Assembly (NCBI GenBank): GCA_002370555.1
Contig: AP014718.1
Span: 372,001 to 436,000, forward strand
Length of the DNA stretch: 64,000 bases
Source of the DNA: Arthrobacter sp. Hiyo4
GTDB lineage: Bacteria; Actinomycetota; Actinomycetes; Actinomycetales; Micrococcaceae
Direction of reading: 5' to 3'
How positions within the stretch are numbered: the first letter of the stretch is position 1; every line of letters begins with the position of its first letter. The translations under genes were made by a program, and so were the position numbers. Positions 4,151-10,164 of the stretch are shown here, one piece after another. Below the pieces are notes generated by a model that saw only the letters and a program-made list of their open reading frames with translations, was not told the DNA's origin and ran no database searches.

Positions 4151-4223
4151 GCCCCCATCGTCTAGCGGCCTAGGACACCGCCCTTTCACGGCGGCGGCAC
4201 GGGTTCGAATCCCGTTGGGGGTA
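4151..4223 (+). tRNA. tRNA-Glu (UUC)
   Basis: Cloverleaf with anticodon TTC in the loop CCTTTCACG, T-loop GGTTCGAATCC, and acceptor arms GCCCCCA and TGGGGGT (first pair G-U). CCA is not encoded. First of three tRNAs in the same direction. Confidence 0.97.
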
Positions 4224-4313
4224 CACAAGGAACTGGTCTGGCAGGCTGAAAACGTCTGGTAAGCTGGAAGCCTTGAAAAAAGCGGTAGCGATGCCGCACA
4301 GCAAGAAAATCAA

Positions 4314-4387
4314 GGCCCTGTAGCGCAGTTGGTTAGCGCGCCGCCCTGTCACGGCGGAGGTCGCGGGTTCAAGTCCCGTCAGGGTCG
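4314..4387 (+). tRNA. tRNA-Asp (GUC)
   Basis: Cloverleaf with anticodon GTC (CCTGTCACG), T-loop GGTTCAAGTCC, and acceptor arms GGCCCTG and CAGGGTC. The discriminator is G at 4387; CCA is not encoded. Confidence 0.97.
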
Positions 4388-4435
4388 CTCTGATTGCCGG
4401 AAGAAATTCCGGCGGTCAAGGTGACATGTCACCTA

Positions 4436-4511
4436 GGCTCTGTAGCTCAGTTGGTAGAGCGTTCGACTGAAAATCGAAAGGTCACCGGATCGACGCCGGT
4501 CGGAGCCACCA
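4436..4511 (+). tRNA. tRNA-Phe (GAA)
   Basis: Anticodon GAA in ACTGAAAATC, acceptor arms GGCTCTG and CGGAGCC, discriminator A and an encoded CCA at 4509-4511. Last gene of the tRNA cluster; a terminator follows at once. Confidence 0.97.
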
Positions 4512-4550: not shown

Positions 4551-4857
4551 TTTAACCCCATCATCGATGACGAGGCTGCCTCCGGCCCGCGACGCGCACT
4601 TTCGCCTCCGACCCGCAAGCGGTCCTGTGACGCGCAGATGCTCCTTCGACGCGCATATTCGAGTGTCGTCATGGTTTTTGCGAGTCCGTGGCGAATTTGC
4701 GAGTCATGAGGATGCTCCGGGTGGGATGGTCACAACGGCGCCATCCCGTGGCGCCGCGTCAGGAGGGCTGCGGAAAGTTCTTCAAGACGTGTGCTCGTCT
4801 TCTCCGCGTGGACGACGGCGACCCCAGCACCCGCTGCACGGGACCGGGCGGTACGCG
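4551..4857. other. About 300 bp without a recognisable gene
   Basis: No reading frame here shows family similarity by eye. The stretch holds three spaced copies of GACGCGCA (about 4591, 4629 and 4648), each preceded by C or T. It separates the tRNA terminator from the truncated GH32 remnant and may be scar sequence from loss of the GH32 5' half. Confidence 0.5.
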
Positions 4858-5749
4858 GGAGATTCGTACACTGTGGGAGATGCCTGAAGTCCTGGAGGTT
4901 CCCGTGGAAGGGATGGACGGGCGGCGCTGGGTCAAGCTCCTCAGCATCAACCCAGGGGGCATAGCTGGCGGCTCAGGCCTGCAGTACTTCACGGGAGAGT
5001 TCGACGGCGTGACATTCCGTGCCCAGGGTGCCGCCGGCCCGGAGGCTCCGCTGCAGGACCACCAGTGGGTGGATTATGGCGCGGATTTCTACGCGGCCAC
5101 CACCATTTCCGGCGCCCCTGGCGGCAAGCCCGTCCTCTTCGGCTGGATGGGGAACTGGGACTACGCCCAGAAGATGCCCACCACTCCGTGGCGCCGCGCC
5201 ATGGCAATTCCCCGCGAGCTGACGCTCTCTGGTGGCAGCAGCAACGGTAACGACGACGGCGGCAGGCCCGCCTGGCGGTCGTCCATCGCCTCCGTGCCTG
5301 CTGGAGTTTTGTCCAGTGGCGCTGCCTCCGAGCGGCAACTGACCGTTGCCGATGAAAGCAAGCCGCTGGGCGAGGACTTCTCCTCCAGGTCCCGGCTCCT
5401 TGATGTTGAACTGACGCCGGACGGCGCTGCGGAGGCCGGAATCGAACTGCGCGGGCCCAAAATCCGTTACCAGGCACAGTCCGGCGCTCTGACGGTTGAC
5501 CGGTCCGCGGCAGGGACTTCAGACTTTTCGGACAAGTTCAGCCCTTACCACGAAGTGAGCGTCCCACTGGCGGACGAAAAACTGAAGCTGCGGCTCCTGA
5601 TCGCTACCTCCTCGGTGGTAGTGTTTCGCCCCCGCAAGCGGCACTGTTGTCACAGATCTCCTCCTGCCGACTGGTCCAACACTGACACGTCGGTGTTCAG
5701 TGAAGGCGGAAAGACCGGATTTACGCTGACCGGCCGGAAGCTGGCCTGA
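4858..5749 (+). pseudogene. Truncated GH32 beta-fructosidase (levanase/invertase) remnant
   Basis: The C-terminal half of a GH32 enzyme. Visible blocks: LWEMPEVLEVPVEG, matching the WECPDLF acid/base motif region with EC changed to EM; INPGGIAGGSGLQYFTGEFDG; DYGADFYAATT; GWMGNWDYAQ; PWRRAMAIPREL; and a beta-sandwich ending VFSEGGKTGFTLTG. The N-terminal catalytic part with the WMNDPNG nucleophile and RDPK motif is absent, and no start codon or ribosome-binding site is evident. Near 5625 the frame also slips and later returns. It cannot be a functional glycosidase. Its place directly after a tRNA cluster fits loss of DNA at an integration hotspot (inference). Confidence 0.82.
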
Positions 5750-5820
5750 CTCACCACGGATTCCCGTGCGTTCCCACACGCAGGGGATAGGGTTGGGAAC
5801 AACAGAAGGGGAAGTGTCTG

Positions 5821-6311
5821 ATGGAATACCAGAACCCACAACCCGATGCGGGCGTCGAGCGCCAGCATGCTGCCAGCCAGCCTGCTACCAGCCACCATGC
5901 CGCCAGCCAGGCGCTCGTGCCCGGTCATGGCCGCACCGTGATCGCTGAGACCGCCGTGGCAAAAGTTGCCGGCATCGCTGCCCGTGCCGTGCCCGGCGTC
6001 TATTCTTTGGGCTCGGCTCCGTCGCGTGCGCTGGGGCCATCCGGGACGCCGTCGGCAGTTCGGACCACGCTGCCGGCGTCCGTGCCGAGGTCGGTGAGAC
6101 GCAAGTGGCGGTGGACATCAGCCTGGTGGCCTCCTACGGGTCGCCGCTGCATTCGCTGGCCGATCAGGTCAGGGCAGCTGTCTACCGTGCGGTCGAGGAA
6201 CTCGTCGGCCTGCAGGTCATTGAAGTGAACGTCGAAATAACCGATGTCTATGTGGCGCCGCCGGTGAAGGCCGGAGCCCCTGCCGTCGCGGAGAGGGAGG
6301 CAATGCTGTGA
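5821..6311 (+). CDS. Asp23/Gls24-family envelope stress protein, one frame break
   Basis: First gene of a tight five-gene operon. A low-complexity Ala/His/Gln N-terminus precedes TVIAETAVAKVAGIAARAVPGVYSLG, the usual Asp23 start. Near 6034 one G is missing in CTGGGGCC; the reading then continues AIRDAVGSSDHAAGVRAEVG, followed by VAVDISLVASYGSPL and VNVEITDVYV. The repaired length is about 163 residues. Asp23-type proteins sit at the inner membrane surface through AmaP-like anchors and help with cell-envelope and alkaline stress. ATG 5821 is preceded by a GGGGAAG ribosome-binding site. The stop overlaps the next start. Confidence 0.88.
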
Positions 6312-6499
6312 ATCTGACCGTTGTGGGGATCGCCATGGGCGCCTTCGTAGCGTTTATGTCCTTCCAGTTCGGGCTGTGGGGCTTCCTGGTCTCGCTCCTG
6401 TTTATGGCCGTCGGCGCCCTCCTGGGCCGCGCAGCGGAAGGGAAACTGGACCTGCGCGGCGTCCTGGATGCCATCATCGGCCGGCGCTCCTCGTCATGA
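6308..6499 (+). CDS. Small membrane protein of the Asp23 operon (DUF2273-like)
   Basis: 63 residues starting at GTG 6308, which overlaps the preceding stop. Two hydrophobic segments (VVGIAMGAFVAFMSFQFGLW and GFLVSLLFMAVGALLGRAA) precede a short basic tail. Size, topology and position match the small DUF2273-type proteins found between Asp23 paralogues in Gram-positive genomes. It is probably a membrane partner for the Asp23 complex. Its ATGA overlap with the next gene implies translational coupling. Confidence 0.75.
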   Translation: MNLTVVGIAMGAFVAFMSFQFGLWGFLVSLLFMAVGALLGRAAEGKLDLRGVLDAIIGRRSSS

Positions 6500-6876
6500 C
6501 GTCAGGGGCGCGATCCATCCAGGGGCGGGTCCTGAGCGGACACAACCGCATCAGCACGCAGGCCCTGACCAGCCTTGCCAGGACAGCGGCCGCGGAGGCC
6601 CTCGGTGTTGAGCCCCATGATGTCCGGGCGGACTGGACGGACGACGACGGCCTGCTGGCGTTATCGCTGGTGTCACCTATCAGGATCCCGCCCCTGGCCA
6701 CCGTGCTGAGGGACGCAGGCCGGGTGGCCGCATTCGGTGGATCTATTTGGGACCGGACGGTCGATGCCAAATCCAGGATCCTTTCGACGGTCACGGCCCT
6801 CAGCGGCGCCAGCCTGAGCAGGGTGGATATCCGCATCAGCGGCGTTAAGCCGATCGAGGGAGGCCGGGTCCGGTGA
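6496..6876 (+). CDS. Second, divergent Asp23-like operon protein
   Basis: 126 residues from ATG 6496 (ATGA overlap). The sequence GHNRISTQALTSLARTAAAEALGVEPHDVRAD and the later VDIRISGV resemble the N-terminal helix and last beta strand of Asp23 proteins, but the middle is diverged. It has no signal peptide or membrane segment. Operon position supports a soluble component of the same envelope complex. Family assignment is tentative. Confidence 0.6.
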   Translation: MTSGARSIQGRVLSGHNRISTQALTSLARTAAAEALGVEPHDVRADWTDDDGLLALSLVSPIRIPPLATVLRDAGRVAAFGGSIWDRTVDAKSRILSTVTALSGASLSRVDIRISGVKPIEGGRVR

Positions 6877-7532
6877 GCGGAGGATCAGTGGACGGGGACC
6901 TCGATTCGAGGCAACCAAGCCGCGCCCGAGCCCAGCCGCAACCCTATATGCGCAGGGTCGTCTACCGGGAAACCCATTCCTCGCGGGCAGTGGTGGCAAC
7001 ATTGGCCGCGGTCCTGGTGATGGGGCTGGCAGGCTACGGTCTGCTCGAATCTGCCGTTCACGCCATTGGCCAGCCGGCCTGGCTGATCGAACCGCAGCTT
7101 GCGGCGGAGCGCATCGTTGCACTTCCGGCGGGTATCCCGCCATTGCTGCTCGGTGCCAGCGGCTCCGTAGTAGCCATGGTGGGGCTGTTCTTCCTGTTCA
7201 ACGCCGTCCTCCCGGGAAGACGCGCCCGGCATGTGCTGAACGGCAGCACGCTGAACGGCAGCGGAATTTCGTCCGCCGTGGTGGTCGATGACGAGGTCAT
7301 AGCCTCCGCCCTGGCACGCAGCGCACGGCTCGCTGCCAATGTCACCCCGGAGCAGGTCATGGTGGTGGTGTCCCGACGGCAGATTATCGTCAACGTGCGC
7401 CCTACCTCAGGGGTTCCAGTAGCGGAAGCGGCGGTGCTGGCCGCGGTCCAGTACGAACTCAGCGGGATGTCACTGGTCCCGGTACCTGACGTCCGCGTAA
7501 ACATTTCCACCGTAGGAGTGATTGGAGCATGA
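6873..7532 (+). CDS. DUF6286-like membrane protein of the Asp23 operon
   Basis: 219 residues from GTG 6873 (GTGA overlap). A basic cytoplasmic N-terminus precedes two transmembrane segments (VVATLAAVLVMGLAGYGLL and LLLGASGSVVAMVGLFFLFN). The C-terminal domain, about 100 residues, ends DVRVNISTVGV, again Asp23-like beta structure. This arrangement matches the alkaline-shock-operon membrane proteins annotated DUF6286 in actinobacteria. It probably anchors the soluble Asp23 proteins. Its stop overlaps the next start. Confidence 0.7.
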   Translation: MSGGSVDGDLDSRQPSRARAQPQPYMRRVVYRETHSSRAVVATLAAVLVMGLAGYGLLESAVHAIGQPAWLIEPQLAAERIVALPAGIPPLLLGASGSVVAMVGLFFLFNAVLPGRRARHVLNGSTLNGSGISSAVVVDDEVIASALARSARLAANVTPEQVMVVVSRRQIIVNVRPTSGVPVAEAAVLAAVQYELSGMSLVPVPDVRVNISTVGVIGA

Positions 7533-8140
7533 CGGCCACACCCTCGCTCCTCAACCGGATCCTGCTCGGCATTCTCGGACTCAAGCTGCTCGCCGTGGGC
7601 ATCCTGCTCGTCCTGCTGGCCACGGTTCCACCAGTGGCAACCTGGTGGCATGCCTGGTCCGGATCGGCCTGGCGCAGCGTCAAACAATCCTTCGACAACA
7701 CCCGCTTTCCGGGACGTCCGGAAAGCTGGCTCTGGATTGTGACGGCGTTCGCCCTGCTGCTTCTGATTGGCCTGATGGTTGCCTGGATTGCGCAGCAGGG
7801 CAAAGGCCGGAGCCATTTGCTGGTGGCCGAGTACGATCCCGGGACAGTAGCCGGAGACGTCCGGATCAGCGGGGGAGTCGCGGAGCAAGCGTTGAAGCAC
7901 GCCTTGGCTGAACGGCCGGATCTGGCCGGTGCCACGGTGGCAACATACGATGTCCAGGGCAGCCCTGCCTTGAAAATCCGGCTCCAGCCGCGCCAGGGTG
8001 TGGCGCCGCATCTTCTTGCGGCCGAGGTCTCTGCCCTGGTGAACGCCTTGGACCAAGTGGTGGGAAAACAGACACCCGTCCTGATTCACATTGGTGCCGG
8101 GGCCAGGACGCGGTTCAGCCGCGCTGAGCGCGTCCGTTAG
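7529..8140 (+). CDS. amaP: AmaP-like alkaline shock membrane anchor protein
   Basis: 203 residues from ATG 7529 (ATGA overlap). Two transmembrane helices (ILLGILGLKLLAVGILLVLL and WLWIVTAFALLLLIGLMVAW) precede a cytoplasmic domain with VRISGGVAEQALKHALAE and a final VLIHIGAG. Two TM segments plus an Asp23-related tail is the AmaP layout. It is the last of five genes joined by 4-bp overlaps, so all five are probably made in fixed ratio. The name is by architecture and context. Confidence 0.72.
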   Translation: MTATPSLLNRILLGILGLKLLAVGILLVLLATVPPVATWWHAWSGSAWRSVKQSFDNTRFPGRPESWLWIVTAFALLLLIGLMVAWIAQQGKGRSHLLVAEYDPGTVAGDVRISGGVAEQALKHALAERPDLAGATVATYDVQGSPALKIRLQPRQGVAPHLLAAEVSALVNALDQVVGKQTPVLIHIGAGARTRFSRAERVR

Positions 8141-8244
8141 TGTGATCCGGGGGACGTCGGTTCGTGCCGATGCCGGCGAACATCACCAGGCAACGGGCCA
8201 CACCACTGTCCGGATGGAATAAGCGGGGAATCAAGGAGAACACC

Positions 8245-8517
8245 ATGAGCGAGCAAGTAACTGGCAGCGGAGCGGCAAGCGAAGGCGCGGCAAAAAAGGC
8301 CAAGGAATTCGCTGGCGAGGCTGCCGGGAACGTGAAGGAGTTCGCCGGCGAAGCTGCAGAAAACGTCAAGGAGTTCCTCGACGGCGACGTGGCTGAGAAT
8401 GCCAAGGAACTTGCTGGCGATGTTGCTGAAAACGCCAAGGAACTGGCCGGCAGCGTGACCGAGAACGTGAAGGGCTTTGGCGCGAAGATCGCCGGTCTGT
8501 TCAAGGGCGGCAAATAG
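8245..8517 (+). CDS. LEA-like amphipathic repeat protein
   Basis: 90 residues from ATG 8245 with ribosome-binding site AAGGAGA. Almost the whole protein is an 11-residue repeat (KEFAGEAAGNV, KEFAGEAAENV, KELAGDVAENA, KELAGSVTENV), rich in Lys, Glu and Ala and lacking Cys and Trp. It ends with a short GAKIAGLFKGGK. Such repeats form amphipathic helices on drying or on membranes, as in group 3 LEA proteins. It lies 104 bp after the AmaP-like gene and before a strong terminator, so it may belong to the same stress response. The specific role is inferred. Confidence 0.72.
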   Translation: MSEQVTGSGAASEGAAKKAKEFAGEAAGNVKEFAGEAAENVKEFLDGDVAENAKELAGDVAENAKELAGSVTENVKGFGAKIAGLFKGGK

Positions 8518-8548: not shown

Positions 8549-8587
8549 AAAGGGCGCCGCGCTCCCCGGGGGAGCGCGGCGCCCTTT
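8549..8587. terminator. Strong GC hairpin after the LEA-like gene
   Basis: Perfect inverted repeat of about 19 bp per arm (AAAGGGCGCCGCGCTCCCC and its complement), starting 31 bp after the stop. There is only a short T-run (TTT), typical of high-GC actinobacterial terminators. Confidence 0.85.
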
Positions 8588-8824: not shown

Positions 8825-10164
8825 ATGAAAAACCGCAAATACCTGCTTCCGGTTGCTGCCACCGGAATTCTGGCACTGTCCCTGACTGCATGTAGCTCCG
8901 GCGGTGGCGGTGGCGGCACCACCACCGGCAGCGACTGCTCTGCCTACTCAAGCTACGGCAAACACGACGGCAAGACCGTCTCCGTCTACGCCAGCATCAC
9001 GGCTGACGAGGGCACGAACCTGGAAACCGCGTTCAAGCCCTTTGAGGACTGCACCGGAGCCACCATCAAGTACGAGGGCAGCAAGGAGTTCGAGACCCAG
9101 ATCGGTGTCCGGGCAAAGGCAGGCAATGCCCCGGACGTTGCCATCTTCCCCCAGCCGGGACTGTTGGCCGATCAGGTCAAGGCAGGCGGCCTGAAGCCTG
9201 CGCCGAAGGCAGTCTCGGATCTGGTGGACAAAAACTGGTCCGCTGACTGGAAGAAGTACGGCACGGTGAACGGGACCTTCTATGCGGCACCGATGCTGGC
9301 GAACGTCAAGGGCTACATCTGGTACGCCCGAAGACGTTCAAGGACAAGGGCTGGCAAGTTCCCAAGACCTGGGACGAGATGATGACGCTGTCCACGAAGA
9401 TCGCCGATGACGGCGCCATGAAACCGTGGTGTGCAGGCTTTGAGTCCGGCGAGGCCACCGGCTGGCCGGGCACCGACTGGGTGGAGGATGTAGTCCTTCG
9501 CGACCAGGGCCCCGAAGTCTATGACCAGTGGGTGAGCCACGAAATCCCCTTTAACGATCCCAAGATTGTGGATGCATTTAACAAGACCGGCGAAATTCTC
9601 CTGAACAACGATTATGTCAACGGTGGATTCGGCGACGCACGCTCCATCCTGACCACGGGATTCGCTCAGGCAGGACAGCCTGTCCTTGATGGCCAGTGCG
9701 CCATGCACCACCAGGCCAACTTCCAGGCAGCCAACTGGCCGGAAGGCACCGCTGTTGCCCCTGACGGCGATGTGTGGGCCTTCATGGCGCCGCCCATTGA
9801 CGCCAGCAAGGGCCAAGCCATCACCGGCGGCGGCGAGATGGTGGGCGCTTACAAGGACACCCCAGAGGTCCAGGCGTTCCTGACCTACATGGCCAGTGCC
9901 GACTTCGCCAACAACCGCGTCAAGCTCGGCGGGGCGATCAGCGCCAACAAGGGACTGGACCCGGCCAGCGCCCAGACGGAACTCGACAAGCAGTCCATCG
10001 CGCTGCTGCAGGATCCGAAGACGGTCTTCCGCTTCGACGGCTCCGACCTGATGCCCGGTGCTGTAGGTTCCAACTCCTTCTGGAAGGGCATTGTCGCCTG
10101 GATCAACGGCACCCCTGCCCAGCAGGTTGCCGACAGCATCGAAGGCAGCTGGCCCAAGAGCTGA
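8825..10164 (+). CDS. aglE: Alpha-glucoside-type ABC transporter substrate-binding lipoprotein, one frame break
   Basis: Lipoprotein signal (LPVAATGILALSLTACSSGG, lipobox LTAC) followed by a family 1 sugar-binding fold close to the AglE/alpha-glucoside binding proteins (TVSVYASITADEGTNLETAF; YEGSKEFETQIGVR; GTDWVEDVVLR; GGGEMVGAYKDTPEVQAFLT). Near 9330 GCCC should read GCCCC; the frame then resumes as PKTFKDKGWQVPKTWDEM. The repaired length is about 446 residues. Two permease genes follow after a stem-loop. No ATPase gene is present, so a shared MsiK-type ATPase is expected. Symbol by similarity of type. Confidence 0.87.

Follow-up and report, generated by a model that had tools for sequence, protein, structure and literature searches.

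An amphipathic repeat protein gene accompanies an Asp23/AmaP-type operon in Arthrobacter and related Micrococcaceae

The genome of Arthrobacter sp. Hiyo4 carries, within a stretch of 64,000 nucleotides (contig AP014718.1, positions 372001–436000; hereafter the window, numbered from its first letter), a five-gene operon of the Asp23/AmaP kind (5821–8140, plus strand), followed by a sixth gene for a 90-amino-acid (aa) protein of 11-residue repeats (8245–8517, plus strand). The source assembly is a single contig of 3.78 Mb (completeness 92.3%, contamination 5.0%), and the nearest named loci found for the operon region come from Pseudarthrobacter and Arthrobacter. The operon core is ordinary; the repeat protein tied to it is a genuine feature that has received little description. 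The repeat gene is optional, yet where present it almost always occupies the place after the AmaP-like gene. We put at about even the chance that the ensemble is an actinobacterial Asp23/AmaP envelope-stress operon whose optional sixth gene supplies an amphipathic-helix stabiliser of the membrane surface. An earlier reading of the sequence (the original prediction) had proposed a combined membrane-scaffold and desiccation or osmotic-stress module, consisting of five overlapping envelope genes and a partner resembling late embryogenesis abundant (LEA) proteins.

Linkage and expected transcription of the repeat gene

The gap between the stop codon of the AmaP-like gene (8140) and the ATG of the repeat gene (8245) measures 104 bp, the distance given by the original prediction. 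Across the genus, AmaP-like matches (E ≤ 1e-5) were found in 205/206 genomes (one of them, G027, with a distant type only) and repeat protein matches (E ≤ 0.001) in 60. In 55 of these 60 the repeat gene shares the strand of the AmaP-like gene and follows it at a distance of 48–335 bp. Three of the linked matches are weak (G162, G068, and G124; E 1.9e-5 to 2.1e-4), as are the matches located elsewhere in G203, G155, G017, and G154 (E 1.5e-4 to 9.7e-4); the remaining genome, G196, has an unplaced match. In the wider family, 35/149 genomes from 13/32 genera matched the repeat protein. From these 35 genomes, 19 loci of other genera were read besides the window, leaving out 15 weaker matches, and 17 of the 19, in five genus groups, have an AmaP-like gene directly upstream. 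By comparison, among 61 loci (drawn from L005–L066) with a readable AmaP-like gene, chosen regardless of the repeat gene, only 13 carry it, and it is these counts together that make the gene optional and its place nearly fixed. The original prediction had proposed co-occurrence in the Micrococcaceae as a check and unlinked copies in relatives, without co-expression, as grounds for abandoning the association; the gene proved to be linked, in the genus and beyond it.

The repeat gene is followed by a terminator-like hairpin (8551–8585, plus strand) with a perfect 14-bp stem and a loop of 7; in the RNA fold the stem lengthens to 18 pairs and the loop shortens to 3 (z = −4.8; 0/200 shuffles equally stable). 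This agrees with the strong terminator proposed earlier. We compared hairpins in 48 gene-holding loci, a set that includes near-copies and the window, against 180 shuffles. Between the AmaP-like and repeat genes the best hairpin never rose above the 95% shuffle level (48/48 loci; the window gap folds ordinarily, z −0.30), whereas within the 120 bases after the gene it did so in 31/48. Of 48 loci that lack the repeat gene, 10 have a hairpin above this level no more than 120 bases from the AmaP-like stop codon.

A promoter-like element, GATAGGGTTGG (5786–5796), and a short leader with a ribosome-binding site precede the first gene (5786–5820, plus strand). The element contains TAGGGT, a hexamer of the TAnnnT type and a candidate −10 element. 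TAGGGT occurs no more than 80 bp before the start of the first gene in 32/33 relatives (L034–L066), and the longer form GATAGG[GA]T precedes that gene in 27/33. The full element has two sites genome-wide, the second on the minus strand at G000:C1:602953-602963. We also considered whether the repeat gene has a promoter of its own and rejected the idea: an alignment of 10 sequences displayed no obvious shared promoter element, and TAGGGT was present in only 1/48 gaps, a count that covers this hexamer and not other promoter types. Because the gap lacks a strong hairpin, a hairpin follows the gene, and TAGGGT stands before gene 1 and not in the gap, the repeat gene is probably read through from the operon promoter on the same message.

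Character of the repeat protein

The 11-residue repeats named in the original prediction are periodic beyond chance: identity at lag 11 reaches 0.43 versus a shuffle maximum of 0.317 (lags 5–33, 10,000 shuffles). When the repeat AAENVKEFAGE is drawn by hand as an 11/3 helix, at 98.18 degrees per residue, Phe8, Ala1, Val5, Ala9, and Ala2 fall within an arc of ~131 degrees, and the acidic residues lie opposite. The helical moment of the repeat core is 0.38 against a shuffle mean of 0.146, with 0/5000 shuffles as high, and in the longest relative the moment is greatest at 98.0 degrees, as expected of an 11/3 helix. Length varies from 52 aa up to 268 aa (the latter within a 292-aa frame) around conserved ends, with E3, T6, and G7 and V75, K76, G79, A83–K87, G89, and K90 invariant in eight sequences. 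The 268-aa protein (L133, genome G066) contains 17–20 repeat units by two pattern counts, versus 3–5 in the window and 0–1 in L035 and L036.

Tandem 11-residue repeats with an amphipathic helix, a feature of group 3 LEA proteins, are present, and the protein shares with that group (Pfam LEA_4; Deinococcus DR_1172) its charged character and predicted helicity. The main rival reading holds that the protein truly belongs to group 3 LEA and shields other proteins, in soluble form, as cells dry, with common regulation as its sole tie to the operon. We judge it unlikely overall, though it draws on several points. AAENVKEFAGE agrees by hand count at 6/11 places with the group 3 motif TAQAAKEKAGE, as given in the available text of PMC6559209; a helical model of low confidence, such as the one obtained here, would suit a protein that folds only on drying; and LEA motifs increase the desiccation survival of Escherichia coli, according to the part of PMC8670023 at hand. 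Profile scores speak otherwise: LEA_4 gives 10.7 bits in the window protein against a cut-off of 51.1, at best 17.3 bits among seven relatives scanned, and goes unlisted at E ≤ 1 for the longest relative's 292-aa frame. Where the motif has Lys, at place 8, the repeat protein has Phe or Leu, and its oily face is broader as a result. The protein is also much shorter and operon-linked, and a soluble shield would not need tight synteny with membrane anchors. The label "LEA-like" could not be upheld as secure on these scores, and "amphipathic 11-residue-repeat protein" is the safer name.

Other helical families come closer to the protein than LEA_4 does. YtxH, ApoLp-III, and Apolipoprotein, which likewise consist of amphipathic helical repeats, each outscore LEA_4 in 7/8 members scanned (in the eighth, L058, YtxH alone does), and one of them is the top Pfam match in all eight. 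The window protein remains below the cut-offs of YtxH (17.2 bits, cut-off 37.5) and ApoLp-III (16.6 bits, E 0.0088, cut-off 36.3). The longest relative reaches E 3e-13 with Apolipoprotein and E 1.6e-9 with ApoLp-III, both repeat-driven, and exceeds the cut-offs of Phasin_2 (35.5 versus 24.9 bits) and ApoLp-III (38.5 versus 36.3 bits). These last two scores, together with an effect on lipid synthesis of YqhY, an Asp23-family protein of Bacillus subtilis (from the available text of PMC5437119), would fit a coat protein of lipid or polyester granules, akin to phasins or apolipoproteins, whose gene stands beside the operon by happenstance. Such a coat seems distinctly improbable to us: the matches derive from the repeats, a kind of similarity that can arise without common descent, and are weak in the window protein of 90 aa, where Phasin_2 is not listed; the operon and a sugar-transporter gene, not storage genes, are the neighbours identified in the window; and in most matching genomes of the genus the repeat gene follows an envelope operon.

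The five-gene core and its surroundings

The operon genes are joined by 4-bp stop-start overlaps (GTGA at 6308, ATGA at 6496, GTGA at 6873, and ATGA at 7529). Across the 33 relatives L034–L066 this overlap is kept at 130/131 readable junctions (33/33, 33/33, 33/33, and 31/32 in gene order), and since the same spacing is kept almost throughout these loci it is not due to chance. Among more distant relatives there is one exception, Arthrobacter sp. ERGS1:01, whose annotation shows no overlap between genes 2 and 3. The earlier description of all five genes as joined in this way stands for the four overlaps; the first gene as sequenced is not an intact open reading frame (ORF).

Gene 1 (5821–6311, plus strand) has a frame disrupted by a one-base deletion near 6033–6036. 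The ORF at 5821–6228 departs from the Asp23 frame, and the C-terminal half continues in the frame of 6105–6311. Four close relatives have one extra base in the G-run at ~6033–6036 in an alignment with the window. A second loss of this kind disrupts the gene for a solute-binding protein of a sugar-type ABC transporter (8825–10164), where the window is one base short in the C-run near 9327–9329 compared with three relatives. Because these two one-base homopolymer losses lie within 3.3 kb and the genes are intact in relatives, they are probably long-read assembly errors. The two halves of gene 1 match Pfam Asp23 at E 0.0014 and 6e-10, the C-terminal half passing the cut-off (39.9 bits versus 28), and the intact gene of relative L034 matches as a whole at E 1e-23; the predicted product is an Asp23-family soluble protein. 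The L034 protein also matches DUF6286 weakly (E 0.0079), and a search of the gene 1 profile against Protein Data Bank chains returned no match at E ≤ 1.

Gene 2 (6308–6499, plus strand) encodes a small DUF2273-like membrane protein of 63 aa (E 0.001; 19.5 bits, under the 25.4 cut-off), found in 33/33 relatives, and the staphylococcal asp23-amaP operon presumably includes a gene of this type. Gene 3 (6496–6876, plus strand) encodes a divergent second Asp23-like protein of 126 aa, which matches Asp23 weakly over profile positions 4–108 (E 0.015; 16.1 bits, cut-off 28). In its alignment, 10/17 members, the window counted, match Asp23 (best E 0.002), and a comparison of gene 1 and gene 3 profiles, built from shallow alignments, gave a probability of 13.7 and E 0.002. 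Of the two Asp23-like soluble proteins originally proposed, gene 1 exceeds the family cut-off and gene 3 is divergent, falling below it in the window.

Gene 4 (6873–7532, plus strand) encodes a 219-aa membrane protein with a borderline match to DUF6286 (PF19803; 34.0 bits in the protein scan and 35.3 in the genome search, cut-off 35). Its AlphaFold model has a mean predicted local distance difference test (pLDDT) score of 67 overall and about 88 in a soluble domain (136–211) with the order b-a-b-b-a-b; the two long helices of the model would be expected to cross the membrane. With this model Foldseek found nothing at E ≤ 0.001 (best DUF59 protein 3lno and OsmY, 0.037), and the best VIA-align hits, OhrB and the ring domain of PrgK (Z 7.5), also MamM, EscJ, and FliF, lay in the usual background. 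The weak alignment of the soluble domain with the ring-building domains of PrgK, EscJ, and FliF (Z about 7) is likewise background. Gene 5 (7529–8140, plus strand) encodes the 203-aa AmaP-like membrane protein, which aligns with positions 4–128 of the 166 in the NCBIfam AmaP profile (E 1.7e-6; 27.9 bits, cut-off 55). Profile comparisons between the larger operon proteins gave probabilities of 0.5 (gene 1 and DUF6286), 0.2 (gene 1 and AmaP-like), 0.6 (gene 3 and AmaP-like), and 8.3 (DUF6286 and AmaP-like, located in the membrane part), with effective sequence numbers of 1.4 to 2.4 that are too shallow to decide; the idea of an Asp23 fold common to all four was dropped because of this shallowness. 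The alignments, drawn from the pool of 33 relatives, comprised 8 sequences (A1), 16 loci minus the window (A2), the window and 16 loci (A3), and the window and 18 loci (A4 and A5). A second, distant AmaP-like gene (34–38% identical) occurs elsewhere in several genomes of the genus (for example G011, G023, G030, G033, and G034), which suggests another operon of the Asp23/AmaP kind there.

The order of these genes recurs well beyond the family. DUF6286 was matched in 64/149 genomes drawn from the order, and 13/25 fetched loci have two Asp23-type genes before DUF6286, nine of them in three other families and four in other genera of the same family; in the remaining 12 the second Asp23 gene was indistinguishable from the first or not seen. 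Against the gene 1 profile, the second Asp23-type gene of the nine other-family loci scores E 0.0039 to 6e-8. The two Asp23 genes flank a small ORF with two hydrophobic stretches in 8/9 of these loci, and 8/9 have an ORF of 197–240 aa with two or more hydrophobic stretches after DUF6286; unlike the window, only 2/9 match the AmaP-like profile. Because three further families of the order share this gene arrangement, the five-gene plan, judged by these profile matches, predates the Micrococcaceae, with the second Asp23-like protein as a standard part and the core as an ordinary Asp23/AmaP operon. The original prediction had singled out that second protein, along with the LEA-like one, as making the composition poorly described; by this comparison the second Asp23-like protein belongs to the usual set. 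The repeat-protein profile found no match in the 25 DUF6286 loci, scanned to ~1500 bases past the DUF6286 match. On the 754-kb replicon of Arthrobacter sp. ERGS1:01 genes 1 and 4 are named, and the others, the repeat protein included, are annotated as "hypothetical protein".

The staphylococcal asp23-amaP operon also joins a soluble Asp23 and its AmaP anchor, as described in the available text of PMC6954212. The window differs from it in having two Asp23-type proteins, an added DUF6286 protein, strict 4-bp overlaps, and the trailing repeat gene, and its AmaP and DUF2273 matches fall below the curated cut-offs. A parallel with staphylococcal csbD was dropped, the locus tags of both csbD genes in the accessible part of PMC5027550 being far from asp23.

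Upstream of the operon lie genes for tRNA-Glu, tRNA-Asp, and tRNA-Phe (4151–4511). Of 20 relatives scanned, 14 have this trio upstream, one short locus has only tRNA-Phe, and five have none of the three; the DNA separating the cluster from the operon varies among relatives. In the window that interval contains a glycoside hydrolase family 32 gene (4688–5749), apparently N-terminally truncated, with a profile match that begins at position 183 of 307; among L034–L066 a match at this place was found only in L034 and L035.

A proposed partner at the membrane surface

In Staphylococcus aureus, Asp23, among the most abundant proteins of that species (available text of PMC5437119), is attached to the membrane through AmaP and forms filaments, and deleting asp23 or amaP induces a cell-wall stress response; the same source, in the part available, calls the molecular function of Asp23 unclear (PMC6954212). 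By homology, the simplest reading of the operon is that it builds a membrane-attached layer: the Asp23-type soluble proteins of genes 1 and 3 would coat the inner face of the membrane, held there by the DUF6286, AmaP-like, and small membrane proteins. The sixth gene, on the same message, would add a short, highly charged repeat protein, probably loose in solution, that may form a long 11/3 amphipathic helix on meeting the membrane surface or when water becomes scarce. Lying along the inner membrane face or the Asp23 layer, this helix could act as a flexible stabiliser, with a reach that depends on how many 11-residue repeats it has. Synteny and physical character make it the simplest reading that, under stress, the sixth protein folds onto the membrane face that carries the layer; contact with Asp23 or AmaP and a part in the response to drying, osmotic, or other envelope stress are further elements of the proposal. 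A desiccation role is plausible. In the desiccated actinobacterium Curtobacterium, two Asp23/Gls24 genes were upregulated, according to the available text of PMC12029717.

Several observations weigh against this proposal. Although AmaP was matched nearly throughout the genus, 146/206 genomes have no repeat protein match at E ≤ 0.001, a threshold that may miss very short versions, and the protein is optional because the operon stands without a match to it in most genus genomes. Two loci of other genera (L100 and L105) contain no operon gene in the 1500 bases read upstream, and the strong hairpin after the repeat gene is missing in 17/48 loci. The protein also changes faster than its neighbour, with 7/90 non-synonymous codons versus 6/203 in the AmaP-like gene (window against L034). 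Its AlphaFold model (helices at 9–46 and 53–87) is a low-confidence one, with pLDDT 57, and helices rich in repeats match many unrelated models. The literature search yielded no expression, localisation, or binding data on the repeat protein.

The patchy presence and the faster change would also fit a bystander: a repeat gene that evolves fast and has stayed by chance where the genome rearranges slowly. An AmaP tree of 98 rows accounts for the presence of the repeat gene with 7 changes, versus 32.9 in shuffles, so the gene is largely inherited with its lineage, a further point for this reading; the rows were partly picked for holding the gene, and on this tree, whose root was not inferred, gain and loss are indistinguishable. 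Some species appear twice in the tree and in the 61-locus set, by number and by name. We nevertheless find a bystander rather improbable, for the sequence upstream of the operon varies between close relatives and the region downstream varies too, while operon and repeat gene stay together in five other genus groups and on one named Arthrobacter replicon.

The combined module of the original prediction is partly supported. The association stands through synteny and terminator placement, and the scaffold fits known Asp23/AmaP systems; the optional nature of the repeat gene and its insecure LEA label weaken the prediction. A more specific version, which we regard as doubtful, would make the repeat protein a dedicated, length-adjustable partner of the Asp23/AmaP layer, a bacterial analogue of synuclein- or apolipoprotein-like helices, that lies beside Asp23 filaments at the inner membrane face and holds membrane and scaffold together in a drying or shrinking cell, its repeat number tuned by lineage. 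Among the matches listed in a search of titles and abstract openings of the open-access literature, no description of an Asp23/AmaP operon with such a protein was found. An amphipathic helix of variable length beside this operon is a concrete and testable hint that the Asp23 layer acts at the membrane surface, and natural strains with versions of 52, 90, or ~270 residues, or with none, offer a ready-made comparison.

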